Assembly: GCA_017501545.1 (NCBI GenBank)
Contig: JAFVWS010000025.1
Coordinates: 1 to 47,548, forward strand
From: Clostridia bacterium
Lineage (GTDB): Bacteria; Bacillota; Clostridia; Oscillospirales; CAG-272
Length of the DNA: 47,548 bases
Reading direction: 5' to 3'
Positions within the stretch are counted from its first letter, which is position 1. Every line of letters starts with the position of its first letter. Under the pieces are notes generated by a model. That model was not told where the DNA came from. It ran no database searches and saw nothing but the letters and a program-made list of their open reading frames with translations. This document shows, piece after piece, positions 1,237-47,217 of the stretch. A program made the position numbers and the translations under genes.

Positions 1237-1316
1237 TGTCATTCTGGAACGAAACGCAGTGGAGCGATAGAATCTCAATACATAAATAGACTCTATCGCG
1301 AAGCTCCAGAGTGACA
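1237..1316. repeat. 80-bp gene-less copy of the TGTCATTCTGGAACG inverted-repeat element
   Basis: The left arm begins TGTCATTCTGGAACG and ends GATAGAATCTC. The right arm begins GACTCTATCGC and ends CTCCAGAGTGACA. The arms are imperfect reverse complements separated by about 10 bases, so the whole unit can fold into one hairpin. The left arm is nearly identical to those at 9336, 9712, 9824 and 9981. Here nothing lies between the arms, whereas at 9336-9695 a GIY-YIG gene does. Confidence 0.8.
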
Positions 1317-1344
1317 AATAGAATAACACTACCTGTTACTAATC

Positions 1345-8360: not shown

Positions 8361-8470
8361 TTCGCACATTATACAATTTTTGACTATTATATTTTACCAT
8401 TTTAACCAAAAACAAGTCCATTTCTTGAAAATCGCTTATCCATATGGTAGAATTTATACGAGGTGATATT

Positions 8471-9358
8471 ATGAAATTAAATGAGATAAACATACGCGAC
8501 CCCTTTATTTTAGTTGAGGGTGGAAAATACTATATGTATGGCACACGCGCGAGGTACACGTGGGGTGATACTGGCACAAAATACAACTACGGCTTTGACG
8601 TTTACGTAAGCTGTGACCTTGAAAACTGGAGTGAGCCAAAAAGCATTTTTGAATACTATGATGGCTTTTTAGGCACACGTGATTTTTGGGCGCCCGAGGT
8701 ACATAAATACAACGGAAAATTTTATATGTTTGCCACCTTTAAGCGTGAAAATGCGACACGTGGTACGGCAATTTTGGAGTCAAGCACCCCAGACGGCACC
8801 TTCAAATTGCACTCAGACGGGCTTATCACCCCTGATGACTGGTCGTCACTTGACGGCACGTTTTACCTTGAGGGCGATACCCCTTATATGGTATTTTGCC
8901 ACGAGTGGACACAAGTAAATAATGGCACAGTTTGCGCAGTAGAATTATCAAAGGATTTGAAGCGTGCAGTAGGCGCACCAAGGCTTTTATGGTCAGCGGG
9001 TGATGCCAGTTGGCGACACGATATAAGAGGCTATGGTGCTTATGTAACCGACGGGCCATTTTTGCTAAAGCGTGGGGGTAAGCTGATTTCCATTTGGTCA
9101 AGCTTTTATAAGGGTGAATACTGTGAGGCAATTGCAAGAAGCGACAATGGAAAAATAGACGGCAACTGGTCAATTGATAATAAGCTTGTTTTCGAGAAAA
9201 ATGGTGGGCACGGTATGGTCTTTAAGGACCTACAAGGCAACGATTGCTTTATTTACCACACGCCTAATGAAACACCAAACGAGCGCCCAGCAATTATGAA
9301 AATCGACCTTGATTCTTGGTTTGGGAATAACACCCTGTCATTCTGGAACGAAACGTAG
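8471..9358 (+). CDS. GH43-like five-bladed beta-propeller glycosidase, 3' end altered by a repeat insertion
   Basis: Predicted 295-residue glycosidase without a signal peptide, so intracellular. The N-terminal NIRDPFI (Asp10) fits the GH43 catalytic base, and DFWAPEVHK, SLDGTF (Asp128) and FCHEW (Glu145) fit propeller blades. The usual Glu-Gly-Pro is Asp-Gly-Pro here (DGPFLLK), so the acid residue is uncertain. Arabinofuranosides or xylosides are typical family substrates. The frame opens 27 bases earlier, but CGAGGTG precedes the ATG at 8471. The last residues (LSFWNET) and the stop codon come from the inverted-repeat element starting at 9336. The likely original end, KIDLDSWFANK and stop, is still visible at 10119-10154. 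Confidence 0.85.
   Translation: MKLNEINIRDPFILVEGGKYYMYGTRARYTWGDTGTKYNYGFDVYVSCDLENWSEPKSIFEYYDGFLGTRDFWAPEVHKYNGKFYMFATFKRENATRGTAILESSTPDGTFKLHSDGLITPDDWSSLDGTFYLEGDTPYMVFCHEWTQVNNGTVCAVELSKDLKRAVGAPRLLWSAGDASWRHDIRGYGAYVTDGPFLLKRGGKLISIWSSFYKGEYCEAIARSDNGKIDGNWSIDNKLVFEKNGGHGMVFKDLQGNDCFIYHTPNETPNERPAIMKIDLDSWFGNNTLSFWNET
9299..9323 (+). repeat. Left copy of a 25-bp direct repeat flanking the repeat cluster
   Basis: AAAATCGACCTTGATTCTTG and the next five bases recur at 10119-10143 with one mismatch. Both encode KIDLDSWF of the glycosidase. The copies bracket the whole GIY-YIG/repeat cluster, as a duplicated target or a recombination footprint would. Confidence 0.85.
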
Positions 9359-9695
9359 TGGAGTGATAGAATCTCAAGGAGAAAACACATATAATGTATT
9401 ACGTTTATATACTTACAAACAAGACAAAAACCGTTTTATATACAGGTGTGACTAACAATTTACAGCGCCGAATATATGAGCATAAAAACAAGCTGATTGA
9501 TGGATTTACCAAAAGGTATAACGTTGATTGCTTGGTATATTATGAAGCTACGCCAGATGTAAAAAGTGCAATTATGCGAGAAAAACAAATTAAGAATTTG
9601 TTGCGCTCAAAAAAAGAGGATTTAATCAACAAGGTCAATCCCAACTGGGATGATTTAATGATATGAGATCCTATCGCTGGCGCTCCAGGATGACA
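9336..9695 (+). mobile_element. 360-bp GIY-YIG unit with terminal inverted repeats
   Basis: Left end TGTCATTCTGGAACG...GATAGAATCTC (9336-9375). Right end GAGATCCTATCGC...CTCCAGGATGACA (9665-9695). The right end reads, in reverse complement, TGTCATCCTGGAGCG...GCGATAGGATCTC, so the ends match apart from about nine bases in the middle of the left arm. The only gene inside is a GIY-YIG nuclease whose stop codon overlaps the right arm. The left arm also occurs at 1237, 9712, 9824 and 9981 without the gene. This is the layout of an autonomous element with shorter derivatives. That the nuclease moves the repeats is inference. Confidence 0.7.
9394..9666 (+). CDS. GIY-YIG nuclease carried between inverted repeats
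   Basis: Predicted 90-residue single-domain GIY-YIG endonuclease. Residues VYIL (4-7) and YTGVT (16-20) are the two motif strands, Arg26 in NNLQRR and Glu63 in MREKQIK are the expected catalytic residues, and the tail NPNWDDL is typical of this small family. There is no separate DNA-binding domain. AAGGAG precedes the ATG by about 12 bases and comes just after the left repeat arm. The TGA overlaps the right arm, so the gene fills the unit. Family members cut or nick DNA, and many stand-alone ones have no known role. The position suggests a role in spreading the flanking repeat, but nothing in the sequence proves it. Confidence 0.9.
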   Translation: MYYVYILTNKTKTVLYTGVTNNLQRRIYEHKNKLIDGFTKRYNVDCLVYYEATPDVKSAIMREKQIKNLLRSKKEDLINKVNPNWDDLMI

Positions 9696-9711
9696 GGCTG
9701 AAAATTTTTAC

Positions 9712-10112
9712 TGTCATTCTGGAACGGAGCATGGCGAAGTGATAGAATCTTTAATTAGTAGATTCTATACGACTCGCTTTCCCTCGCTTGCATAAATTCT
9801 ACTAACGAAATTAAAATTTCGAGTGTCATTCTGGAACGAAACGTAGTGGAGTGATAGAATCTCTAATTCCTAGATCCTATACGACTCGCTTCACTCGCTT
9901 GCATAATTCCCACTAACGAAAACAAGTTTTCGAGTGTCATTATCGCTGGCGCTCCAGGATGACAGGCTGAAAATTTCGAGTGTCATTCTGGAACGAAGCA
10001 TGGCGAAGTGATAGAATCTTTAATTAGTAGATCCTATACGACTCGCTTGCATAATTCCCACTAACGAAAACAAGTTTTCGAGTGTCATTATCGCTGGCGC
10101 TCCAGGATGACA
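9712..10112 (+). repeat. Tandem cluster of gene-less inverted-repeat copies
   Basis: Three left arms start TGTCATTCTGGAACG at 9712, 9824 and 9981. Each is followed by a conserved tail with CGACTCGCTT, TTGCATAA, CTAACGAAA and TTTCGAG. Two right arms (about 9935-9964 and 10083-10112) read TGTCATTATCGC...CTCCAGGATGACA. The segments after the second and third left arms are nearly identical over about 100 bases, so the cluster grew by duplication. No coding frame is convincing. This explains the gene-free stretch between the GIY-YIG gene and the leucine-rich-repeat gene. Confidence 0.8.
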
Positions 10113-10118
10113 AAAAGA

Positions 10119-10154
10119 AAAATAGACCTTGATTCTTGGTTTGCAAACAAATAA
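10119..10154 (+). pseudogene. Detached 3' end of the GH43-like gene
   Basis: Encodes KIDLDSWFANK and a TAA in frame, repeating the codons at 9299-9323, and is followed directly by a terminator. It looks like the original end of the glycosidase gene, now cut off by the roughly 0.8-kb repeat cluster. Confidence 0.7.
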
Positions 10155-10187
10155 AAAAGAGCCACATATATGGCTCTTTTTTTAATT
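10155..10187. terminator. Bidirectional terminator
   Basis: Stem AAAGAGCCA / TGGCTCTTT with a CATATA loop and A/T runs on both sides. It would serve the original GH43 gene (plus) and the leucine-rich-repeat gene (minus), whose stop is at 10188. Confidence 0.85.
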
Positions 10188-12188
10188 TTAGCTATTTACA
10201 ACTGGAAGCTTGTCATAGGTTATCGGCACTGCCACATCGGTTGTGGTGTTACCTATATAGTAAATCGAGCTGTCCTCAATTATGTAAGCACTACAGTAGA
10301 ATTGCATTTCAACGTCATCATCACCAATTCCGTGCATTATCAAATCATATCTATTTAGATTTTGGTAATTTGTATCTGTAAAATCAGTGATTATGTAGTT
10401 TGAAAGCTTTGATGTGCCGTTGGCATTTAGAATTTGGTTGTCATCGCTCTCTACGCTTCCAATAATAAATCCAAATTGAATGTTTGCATCTGGATTGTGT
10501 GCAATATAGTCGCTGTATGATTGCTCATTTAGTGAAATTCCAAACGTAAAGCTCTTACCTGTACCATAGTTTGCGTATGAATAGCCCTTGTTTGTGAAGA
10601 TTGCTGTTGCAATTGTTTCTTTGATTACGTTTTCATTGCATCTTTGGCATGTTGTTGCAATAACGTAGTCTGTTAGGTATTCAGCGCCAAGAAACTTCTC
10701 TTGCTCTGCGCCATGTCTATGCTCGTCATTATAGAATGCCTTGCACGCGCTATAACCGTAAACAAGGTGGTAGCCACTTGGCGCTGTTGTATCTGCGTCA
10801 TACTCCTTTGCGGAAACTAACTCAGCATTATAGAATTTCGAGCTGTTTGGTATGTGACCGGGTGCATTTTCCTCAGTATATGTTTTGAGTGCCAATTGAA
10901 GTGCGGCTGCCTGTTCCATTGTGCCTGTAAAAATTAATGTAACGTTATCAGCGGAGTCAGCTGAATTTGAATATCCAAGAATATGGTCGCCTATGCTTTC
11001 TACTGAAGCAGGAATATATACTCTTTCAAGTGCATGAAGATATGCAAGGGTTCCGTCACTTAATTTTGTAAGGCTGTTACCAAATCTAATCTCTTTAAGC
11101 GCTGTGCAACTGGAAAAGTTGCCTGCTGCAAGGGTTGTCATACTATTAGGGAATACTATTTTTTCTAACGAAGAGCATGCAGCAAAGTTGTTGCCGCCTG
11201 AAATACTTTCAAGTCCCTCTGAGAAGGTTATTTGCTTCAAAGAGTTGCAATCCCAGAAATTGTCGTATCCAATTTCCGTAACAAGTGGTGGAATAAAAAT
11301 GCTTTCAAGATTAGTACAGCCTCTAAAAATGCTTATCCATTTGTTGCTAATTTGAGAATTTGCAGAAATGTTTACATTTTTAAGTGCCGAACAACCTTGG
11401 AAAGAGAAGTTACCAAGAGTGGTAATATTGTCAGGAATTGTAAACTCTGACAAAGATGTACAGCCGTTAAACGTTGAACTTGGAATTGTGGTCATATTTG
11501 TTGGCCAGTTAATTGATTTTAATGACGTGCAATTTTGGAAAACGCTACTTCCCATTGATGTGATTGTGTTTGGTAGGGTAATGGTTTCAAGACCTGTGCA
11601 GCCTATAAATGCTTGCTGACCAAAGGTAGTGAAATTGGTGCAAGCTGAAAAGTCTACAGTTTTTAATTTGTAGTTATTTTGGCAGCCGTTCCACTGAATT
11701 TCCACCAATTTTTCACTGCAAACAATTTCTTCAAGTGCAGGAAAGCCAGCAATTGTAGCTCCTCTAATAATGTTTACGTTACCTGTAATTATCTTTTTTA
11801 GGCTTGTTGCGTTAGCCGGTGTAAAGTTAGTTTTAGATAAGTGCATTGAGCCGTTTGTACCATAGGTTTCAACATACTCACCGGTATTTGCATCAAGCTG
11901 CATTCTGTGACCATTAGTAAAATCAACAACAGCTACCTGTGACCAGTCAAGAAACGGATAAGTTGATTCTGTATCAAGAGGTGGCTCTGTATATGTTGCG
12001 TCAGTAAAATTAAGACGTCCTTGCCATTGGTCCCAGTCGGCTGATTCATATACTGTAATTTTTGAGCCATCAACAAGCTCAACCTCAAACTGCTGATAAC
12101 CGGCAATTTGTGCAGCGCTAACTGCTACTGCAAACAAGCAAACAAATATTGCAAGAAGAGTAAGCGTTAGTAAAATTTTCTTTTTCAT
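10188..12188 (-). CDS. Secreted BspA-like leucine-rich-repeat surface protein
   Basis: Predicted 666-residue exported protein. The signal peptide ends near AVSAA (residue 26). From about 130 to 430 there are BspA/LRR_5-type repeats (for example FQNCTSLKSI, FNGCTSLSEF, FQGCSALKNV). The C-terminal 150 residues contain a CxxC pair (CQRCNENV) and FTNKGYSYANYG, which match the N-terminal domain of the secreted SGNH protein. Such proteins usually bind host or substrate surfaces. A longer frame starts at 12248, but AAAAAGGAG precedes the ATG at 12188, where the signal peptide begins. It is divergent from an AraC regulator, which may control it. No LPxTG anchor is seen. Confidence 0.9.
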   Translation of the reverse strand: MKKKILLTLTLLAIFVCLFAVAVSAAQIAGYQQFEVELVDGSKITVYESADWDQWQGRLNFTDATYTEPPLDTESTYPFLDWSQVAVVDFTNGHRMQLDANTGEYVETYGTNGSMHLSKTNFTPANATSLKKIITGNVNIIRGATIAGFPALEEIVCSEKLVEIQWNGCQNNYKLKTVDFSACTNFTTFGQQAFIGCTGLETITLPNTITSMGSSVFQNCTSLKSINWPTNMTTIPSSTFNGCTSLSEFTIPDNITTLGNFSFQGCSALKNVNISANSQISNKWISIFRGCTNLESIFIPPLVTEIGYDNFWDCNSLKQITFSEGLESISGGNNFAACSSLEKIVFPNSMTTLAAGNFSSCTALKEIRFGNSLTKLSDGTLAYLHALERVYIPASVESIGDHILGYSNSADSADNVTLIFTGTMEQAAALQLALKTYTEENAPGHIPNSSKFYNAELVSAKEYDADTTAPSGYHLVYGYSACKAFYNDEHRHGAEQEKFLGAEYLTDYVIATTCQRCNENVIKETIATAIFTNKGYSYANYGTGKSFTFGISLNEQSYSDYIAHNPDANIQFGFIIGSVESDDNQILNANGTSKLSNYIITDFTDTNYQNLNRYDLIMHGIGDDDVEMQFYCSAYIIEDSSIYYIGNTTTDVAVPITYDKLPVVNS

Positions 12189-13803: not shown

Positions 13804-14331
13804 CTAATCCTCTTTATAAAGCTCGTCGTTTTCCCAATTTATAGGATTTTCCCAAATGTATTTTGATACTTGGTCATAGTCACTTCTGTTCCTTATTACG
13901 TGGTCGTAATAGGAGCGCTGAAACAGCTTTGTGCCCTTTTTGTCTATCAAATCATTAATTTGCTTTGTTGCTTGGTATTTAAACCACCCGACAAAGGACG
14001 ACACCGTAGGGGAGGGGTTTTCCCTCCCGTCGTTATGCACGGTTATCAATAAATGAATATGATTAGGCATAATCACGTAATAATCAACTGAAAAATTTGA
14101 ATATTTCGTAGGGACATTTTCAATTAAGCTTTTAATAATTTCGCCTGACCTTGTTAATTGCGGGAGGGATGACCCCTCCCCTACAATGCTTGATAAAATT
14201 TTTTCTCTATTATTTGTGCATATGGTTATAAAATACGAGTAGCCAGCACCATAGTCAAAATTTTCAAGCCTGTTTTTCTTTCTTTTGGGCAGATTGCTTT
14301 CCATTTTTAGCCTAAATGCTCGCCTATCCAT
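13804..14331 (-). CDS. REP-associated (Y1/HUH, RAYT) transposase
   Basis: Predicted protein of up to 175 residues in the IS200/REP-associated tyrosine transposase family. It has the HUH motif in VIMPNHIHLLI (His91, His93), an early strand YSYFITICT, and likely catalytic Tyr141/142 in RSYYDHVIRN, followed by KYIWENPINW. In the first frame it overlaps the GH29-like gene by 25 bases. An ATG at 14304, just after that gene's stop, is an alternative start. Two 24-base G-rich palindromic sequences lie inside the coding region in opposite orientation (14006-14029 and 14161-14184), encoding ENPSPT and VGEGSSLPQ. RAYTs are known to act on such palindromes elsewhere. It looks intact. Confidence 0.88.
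   Translation of the reverse strand: MDRRAFRLKMESNLPKRKKNRLENFDYGAGYSYFITICTNNREKILSSIVGEGSSLPQLTRSGEIIKSLIENVPTKYSNFSVDYYVIMPNHIHLLITVHNDGRENPSPTVSSFVGWFKYQATKQINDLIDKKGTKLFQRSYYDHVIRNRSDYDQVSKYIWENPINWENDELYKED
14006..14029 (+). repeat. REP-like palindrome inside the transposase gene (copy 1)
   Basis: GTAGGGGAGGGG, a short loop, then CCCTCCCG, forming a 7-bp stem GGGAGGG / CCCTCCC. Identical at 22 of 24 positions to the reverse complement of copy 2. Confidence 0.75.
14161..14184 (-). repeat. REP-like palindrome inside the transposase gene (copy 2, inverted)
   Basis: On the minus strand GTAGGGGAGGGG, TCAT, CCCTCCCG. It is inverted relative to copy 1, with about 130 bases between them, as in paired REP elements. 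Confidence 0.75.
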
Positions 14332-46863: not shown

Positions 46864-46974
46864 TTCGTTATAATATCTGTTTTTTAGGTGCGACCACTCG
46901 TACTACCGTACAAAGTACGCTGACGACTTTGTGTTCACACCTTCTGCATTTGTTTCGCTATCCCAAAATGGAGT

Positions 46975-47217
46975 ATGAATTATACATATATATTAAAATG
47001 CGCAGACGGCACGCTTTACTGCGGTTGGACAAACGACCTTGAAAAAAGGCTGAAATCGCACAACGATGGCAAGGGCGCAAAATACACACGCTCTCGCTTG
47101 CCAGTCACCCTTGTATATTACGAGGAATTTGATAGCCCTGTTGAAGCACAAAAAAGAGAATACAGAATTAAAAAATTAACAAGACAAGAAAAGCTAAAGC
47201 TAATAGAAAAACAATAA
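46975..47217 (+). CDS. GIY-YIG nuclease (second, YhbQ-like)
   Basis: Predicted 80-residue single-domain GIY-YIG protein: [16 protein letters not shown] holds the two motif strands, Arg25 in NDLEKR and Glu62 in QKREYRIKK are the expected catalytic residues. It belongs to a different subgroup from the nuclease at 9394 and has no inverted repeats of that kind around it. GGAG lies only two bases before the ATG, so translation may be weak. The role is unknown; stand-alone members are thought to act in DNA repair or recombination. Confidence 0.88.

Follow-up and report, generated by a model that had tools for sequence, protein, structure and literature searches.

Free-standing GIY-YIG homing endonucleases are nucleases whose genes may spread through host repair. 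GIY-YIG site-specific single-stranded nucleases (Ssn) were reportedly described by the Veyrier group in Nature Communications in 2025, and in Neisseria their target is said to be a genomic repeat called NTS. Recognition of genomic repeats by a GIY-YIG family is probably known already. The catalogue of Di Nocera, De Gregorio and Rocco (2013; PMC3733652), in the part of its text available to us, describes CGTC repeats as one of two large REP classes, with a CGTC, TGTC or CCTC tag, an AT-starting stem of 8–9 bp, a loop of 4–5, a tail that is often CCA, and many dispersed copies that are mostly dimers; Neisseria dRS3 is its CGTC-1. According to the same part of the text, CGTC REPs apparently have no dedicated transposase and no tyrosine transposase gene is flanked by CGTC repeats, and the string 'giy' occurs nowhere in it. 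Terms for Ssn or for a link between GIY-YIG and repeats were likewise not found in PMC12306157, and the literature searched yielded neither a GIY-YIG link to CGTC-type repeats nor mobility of such units.

The window, as we call the whole 47,548-nt stretch of DNA analysed, belongs to genome G000. The sequence-only reading had described a 360-bp unit in it, in which inverted arms frame a gene for a 90-aa GIY-YIG protein whose stop codon overlaps the right arm. The arms and gene are as described: a left arm of 40 nt (9336-9375, +), reading TGTCATTCTGGAACG...GATAGAATCTC, and a right arm of 31 nt (9665-9695, −), reading GAGATCCTATCGC...CTCCAGGATGACA, enclose a single gene, a member of the Ssn-like subgroup (9394-9666, +; ORF and Pfam). 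The left arm owes its greater length to 9 extra nucleotides mid-arm, and the TGA stop shares the first two bases of the right arm. Each arm is a tagged palindrome rather than a plain inverted repeat, consisting of TGTC, an AT-starting stem (ATTCT/AGAAT in the left arm), a loop, the closing stem and a CT tail (CT or CC); the right arm is of the same class, inverted, and both tags point outward. The unit is not an isolated element, since more arms follow it downstream: + arms at 9712-9751 and 9981-10020 (sequence comparison and degenerate arm pattern), another at 9824-9863 identical to 9336-9375 at 40/40 positions, and variant right arms at 9935-9964 (−) and 10083-10112 (−) read directly from the sequence, so that the gene unit opens a cluster spanning 9336-10112. 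Arms had also been claimed elsewhere in the window without the gene, and this is borne out by the + arms starting at 9712, 9824, 9981 and 1237, the last opening an 80-nt dimer of two inverted arms with a short loop (1237-1316, +; arm search, reading and folding). The dimer folds at z -3.4, with 1 of 200 shuffles folding as well; two single arms folded no better than shuffles, and the perfect stem of the window arms is 5 bp only. Rfam, run on 9200-10300 at E 0.1, returned two matches, both far under their gathering scores. Stems vary in matched ways within G000, as ATTCT/AGAAT, ATCCT/AGGAT and, in gene-less units, ACTCT/AGAGT.

The 90-aa protein matches PF01541 (GIY-YIG; Pfam, E 6.2e-19), the sole domain found, and in an alignment with 11 relatives (12 members) the GIY-YIG core residues are among the invariant columns. 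It belongs to a close subgroup with 54-91% identity that is present in 13 of 96 related genomes, G000 counted. Other GIY-YIG matches in these relatives, small or long, are commoner and share 29-41% identity with it, and on this difference the small URI/UPF0213 group was rejected as its home; the solved structures that match it are two UPF0213 proteins (E 1.6e-8 and 1.5e-4). NCBIfam has no family for the window protein or for three relatives, and PADLOC found no match at the locus. Ten phage records hold homologues at 38.5-39.7% identity, and the one such locus examined (L251) has no tagged palindrome in 3.2 kb. Presumably, the window enzyme belongs to the recently described Ssn family of single-strand nucleases. 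The exact arm type of the window occurs in only 3 of the 96 genomes, G000 (10), G004 (2) and G012 (2), whose proteins are at least 78% identical, and most other subgroup members among the relatives carry their own palindrome versions. G004 has a second subgroup gene (L122; G004:C7, 7489-7752) with nearby palindromes of another stem type, ATTTC, and two enzyme-repeat pairs may therefore coexist in one genome. A second small GIY-YIG gene in the window (46969-47217, +) is of the URI type and has no tagged palindrome within 300 nt.

A scan of contigs found at least 563 relatives among at least 580 matched stretches, of which the best 80, ranked by protein similarity, were retained; judged from record titles, these 80 come from at least 15 phylum-level groups. 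Palindromes were defined as GTC followed by a stem ATNNN and a loop of 3-32, the AT start thus being demanded by the search. Such a palindrome lies within 300 nt of the gene at 72 of these best 80 of at least 563 loci (upstream at 61, downstream at 64, on both sides at 53), and seven of the eight loci counted as misses hold degenerate forms by eye. Across the best 80, palindromes number 4.93 per kb close to the gene against 0.224 per kb beyond 800 nt, about 22 times background. When all 64 trinucleotide tags were tried, GTC gave 234 near matches, the next tag 56 and the median tag 6; of the 234, 223 read TGTC or CGTC and 225 have tails starting CT, CC or CG. The nearest palindrome points its tag outward at 44 of 61 loci upstream and 44 of 59 downstream, and does so on both sides at 31 of the 48 loci having both (binomial 8e-9 against 0.25). 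Loci with the same stem type encode more similar proteins (72 loci; 0/2000 permutations), a relation to which shared ancestry of the hosts may contribute and which persists among pairs below 60% identity (0/2000 permutations). Stems reach about 8 bp at several loci, for example L139, L143 and L246. The association is specific to the subgroup, palindromes lying near 12 of 13 subgroup genes among the relatives against 2 of 17 URI-type genes, the latter at background density; among ten small genes of a sample of the whole phylum, they lie within 300 nt of three of the four subgroup genes and of none of the six URI-type genes. Against the strong form of the link, in at least 5 of the 13 relatives (L025, L027, L028, L030 and L032) the gene comes directly after another one, and the 180 nt upstream of it are free of palindromes by eye. 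We are confident, with little reservation, that the subgroup enzyme and the repeat class are partners.

The pairing extends to published carriers of CGTC repeats. Six named records were examined, picked from 33 matching records of a plasmid collection, and three of them, Azospirillum lipoferum 4B, Sinorhizobium meliloti and Neisseria gonorrhoeae, are carriers named in the available part of PMC3733652. In A. lipoferum CGTC palindromes flank the subgroup gene, which sits between sufB and sufC, and in S. meliloti the gene has CCTC palindromes on either side, which a GTC search misses and a CTC search finds. Planktothrix, Aeromonas caviae and Rhizobium sp. CIAT894 have TGTC or CGTC palindromes on either side of the gene, that of Rhizobium sp. 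CIAT894 sitting among CGTC palindromes. Neisseria gonorrhoeae has a subgroup homologue with 50.6% identity over 94% of the query and 16 CGTC palindromes in 3.2 kb; this homologue may be Ssn itself. As to surroundings, the A. lipoferum gene (L248, AZO_p3) is within the suf operon, and in a Planktothrix agardhii plasmid (L249) the subgroup gene and its palindromes lie between an MmeI-like restriction gene and the DISARM gene drmA. Several plasmid-labelled records, including NZ_CP119140.1, NZ_CP119142.1, NZ_AP026896.1 and NZ_CP104127.1, are chromosome-sized (2.2-4.9 Mb) and probably mislabelled.

Gene and repeats were also compared across whole genomes, those with at least three repeats of either of two patterns being called repeat-rich. 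Among the 96 relatives, 8 of 13 genomes with the gene are repeat-rich against 2 of 83 without it (Fisher 4e-7), and in the phylum sample, comprising 249 genomes with a completeness of 90% or more, the figures are 3 of 5 against 6 of 244 (Fisher 3e-4), the 5 of 249 resulting from a cut at a gap in score between at least 149 and at most 62 bits. These counts are underestimates, since the patterns miss other repeat types, such as that near the gene in G032; 5 of the 13 gene-bearing relatives have fewer than three repeats by the patterns used. The reversed-pattern control gave single matches in 6 of the 249 genomes and none in the 96. The sequence-only reading had suggested testing whether arm-rich genomes always hold a subgroup gene: 8 of 10 repeat-rich relatives do, against 3 of 9 in the phylum sample, a result that partly contradicts the link in its strong form. 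In the other six of those nine, a family search yields UvrC-like or URI-type genes only, one of them with an internal stop; G163, G249 and G278 each show just one GIY-YIG ORF, long and UvrC-like. Conversely, G183 (L214) has a subgroup gene with no palindrome within 300 nt in a genome of 23 repeats. Repeats strongly favour gene-bearing genomes, yet these six genomes speak against an obligate dependence on the gene; repeats without a gene would fit relics left after gene loss, by analogy with REPs and RAYTs.

Within G000, gene-bearing and gene-less units co-occur as had been proposed, in both pattern and BLAST searches. The degenerate arm pattern has 10 matches in the genome, 5 of them inside the window (reversed-pattern control, 0), and BLAST of the arms finds 12 places, 5 inside and 7 outside. 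At least 8 of these 12 are in inverted pairs by eye, and the copies are dispersed and modest in number. Homology between dispersed gene-less copies can start and end near the tags, as between L016 2508-2591 and window 1237-1318, and the inverted pair therefore looks like the dispersed unit. A larger composite of about 400 nt, made of several REP pairs plus spacers and bigger than the 80-nt pair, is common to L014 (2456-2854) and L015 (2175-2567) at 88% identity, and L018 and L019, which both stem from a single duplicated region, are not independent.

The genomic positions of the unit differ between relatives. GH30, FUC, MBL, AraC and GH43 genes form one neighbourhood in G000, G004 and G011, and in G012 FUC, MBL and AraC are on one contig and GH43 and GH30 on another. 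The GIY-YIG unit occupies the FUC-MBL gap in G004 and G012 and the GH43 3' end in G000; the FUC-MBL gap has no gene in G011 and a RAYT-like gene in G000. After GH43 in G004, G011 and G012 there is no palindrome within the at most 140 nt compared. At the gene-less unit in L015, G011 and G012 have the matching gene end and terminator with the repeat absent in 330 nt, and the G004 counterpart has other tagged palindromes. The unit-free sites in close relatives that had been called for therefore exist, at the GH43 end in G004, G011 and G012, in the FUC-MBL gap of G011 and at counterparts of L015; the trpS and infB neighbourhoods were set aside as too divergent, leaving L015 as the only usable gene-less comparison. 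The FUC-MBL and GH43-end positions could represent two independent arrivals of the unit.

In the window, the cluster 9336-10112 lies between two copies of the GH43 3' end that are identical at 28 of 32 nt, the left at 9299-9330 (+) and the right at 10119-10150 (+), recognised by direct-repeat comparison. The GH43 frame (8444-9358, +; ORF, Pfam and comparison with relatives) now runs into the left arm and ends within it, and the right copy is followed by a stop and a terminator-like hairpin, as comparison with G012 leads one to expect. As the copies differ at 4 of 32 positions, the duplication event is not recent. Two further loci show the same arrangement: L200 (Lacinutrix) has a 49-nt duplication, 46 nt identical, of the 3' end of a Helicase_C gene, with 7 and 6 nt between it and the palindromes. 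In L156, from an alphaproteobacterium, the duplication is of 24 nt, 23 nt identical, copies the 3' end of a DUF72 gene and lies 27 nt from each palindrome. Each of the three, of 32, 49 and 24 nt, is thus the 3' end of a coding sequence. In the outer-flank test, 59 of 96 units were usable (37 were dropped, lacking palindromes or flank on one side) and 4 of the 59 reached at least 24 bits against 0.03 expected; of these, L129 and L160 are repeat-derived, so that L200 and L156 are the only non-repeat-derived duplications found by the script. The window duplication is a third, found outside the script, which missed it because the rule used for chaining closes the cluster too soon. We rely on this test rather than on an initial direct-repeat test, in which 20 of 81 loci scored at least 40 bits compared with 1 of 6480 mismatched pairs, because the 15 loci of the latter examined closely are mostly tandem arrays and spacers. 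Direct repeats at L148 and L146 fall in no assigned class.

Taken together, these observations incline us, by a modest degree, to read the locus as a gene-bearing unit of the CGTC/TGTC REP superfamily spread in a homing-like manner by nuclease nicking and host repair. The GIY-YIG gene would sit in the loop formed by a REP pair with outward-pointing tags, and the gene-less 80-nt pairs would be non-autonomous kin of this unit. By analogy with Ssn, the enzyme may bind the tagged hairpin as single-stranded DNA and nick it. GIY-YIG enzymes are not known to have strand-transfer chemistry, so the repeats would spread by a homing-like route: staggered nicks would be made at 3' gene ends, and host repair would copy a REP-ended fragment in and fill the nicks, producing a long target duplication. 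The gene-bearing form probably is, or was, a mobile unit. From the analogy and the long duplications, nicking by the enzyme followed by host repair may be what drives this mobility; it is the most likely of the routes named, and we hold it as a possibility that falls somewhat short of probable. The suggestion of a mobile family driven by a GIY-YIG enzyme therefore stands in its first part, the pairing being general (72 of 80 loci, the best 80 of at least 563), and in its second becomes conditional: from the association, the tag-outward orientation, the unit-free sites and the three duplications of 24–49 nt, we infer that the enzyme would move the repeats. More broadly, TGTC/CGTC repeats across phyla could be passengers of GIY-YIG-run units that insert at 3' gene ends with 24-49 nt duplications through nicking and repair copying, forming a second REP-enzyme lineage parallel to RAYT/GTAG with unrelated chemistry, a generalisation that we find nearly as easy to accept as to doubt.

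An alternative that we consider unlikely, yet the best of those weighed, is that the gene encodes an Ssn-type nuclease with the repeats as its recognition sites and single-stranded DNA, incoming or replicating, as its substrate, for instance in tuning natural transformation; the repeats would then spread by recombination or slippage, and the gene would stay among them through local amplification of the clusters or through regulation by its targets. The six of nine repeat-rich phylum genomes that have repeats without the gene fit a resident nuclease of this kind, as does the emphasis that the Ssn work reportedly places on transformation rather than mobility, and local amplification would explain the tandem arrays of dimers plus spacers at several gene loci (L127, L130, L154 and L158). 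Such a nuclease does not predict the tag-outward framing of the gene, the placement of the unit in gaps that differ between genomes and have empty counterparts, or the target duplications of 24-49 nt. A very improbable reading is that a RAYT, an HUH tyrosine transposase, moves the repeats with the GIY-YIG gene as its cargo. The window does contain a RAYT-like gene (13804-14331, −; Y1_Tnp PF01797, E 1e-9; NF047646 at 71.3 bits, under its cut-off of 80) between the FUC and MBL genes, the very gap occupied in G004 and G012 by the GIY-YIG unit, but within 300 nt of it there are two GTAG-tagged palindromes and no TGTC palindrome; GTAG-type palindromes also occur inside its reading frame, and the finding reported in PMC3733652 that CGTC repeats flank no tyrosine transposase gene speaks against the cargo role too. 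Equally improbable is that intergenic hot spots gather REPs and small nuclease genes with no functional link, for although some units and repeats do sit at the 3' ends of genes, palindromes around the small GIY-YIG genes of the other group are no denser than background (2 of 17), the type of repeat follows protein similarity, and gene and repeats co-occur across genomes.

For the favoured reading of a nuclease-spread REP unit, the locus and its relatives provide a named candidate enzyme for CGTC repeats, which the 2013 catalogue left without one. The enzyme-repeat pairing predicts which repeat each enzyme should recognise, and a single oligonucleotide and a protein of 90 residues suffice to test it. 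Should the enzyme also move the repeats, a nuclease that lacks joining chemistry would be driving a transposition-like process, and this would account for a frequent origin of variation between genes.

How the unit stands towards known systems can be summarised by its enzyme, its ends and its duplications. A classical IS or MITE was rejected, as the protein has GIY-YIG only and no strand-joining transposase domain, and the duplications of 24, 32 and 49 nt are not of a short fixed length, with none found by script at other units. Free-standing GIY-YIG homing endonucleases have a single homing site, whereas this unit has none and instead has palindromic ends and many gene-less copies. With Ssn, the window protein shares its small, single-domain GIY-YIG form and the company of a genomic repeat, which would here too be the enzyme's target; mobility of a gene-bearing unit and the link to CGTC REPs are proposed here and are not known to figure in the Ssn work, and an Ssn-like activity is predicted from sequence. 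The window arms resemble CGTC REPs in tag (TGTC), complementary AT at the stem start, short unpaired tail and dimers, and by this match the repeats belong to the published superfamily and are not wholly new, although, compared with those in the available part of PMC3733652, many of the stems and loops seen here are of greater length or broken up. The closest likeness in architecture is to REPtrons (RAYT plus GTAG REPs), which the sequence-only reading had rightly chosen as its analogy: they too consist of a small nuclease gene framed by REPs, with gene-less REP pairs elsewhere. Identity with a REPtron was rejected, Pfam finding GIY-YIG only and no HUH tyrosine transposase; REPtrons combine an HUH enzyme with a GTAG tag, whereas the unit described here combines a GIY-YIG enzyme with a TGTC tag and, at three loci, duplications of 24-49 nt.
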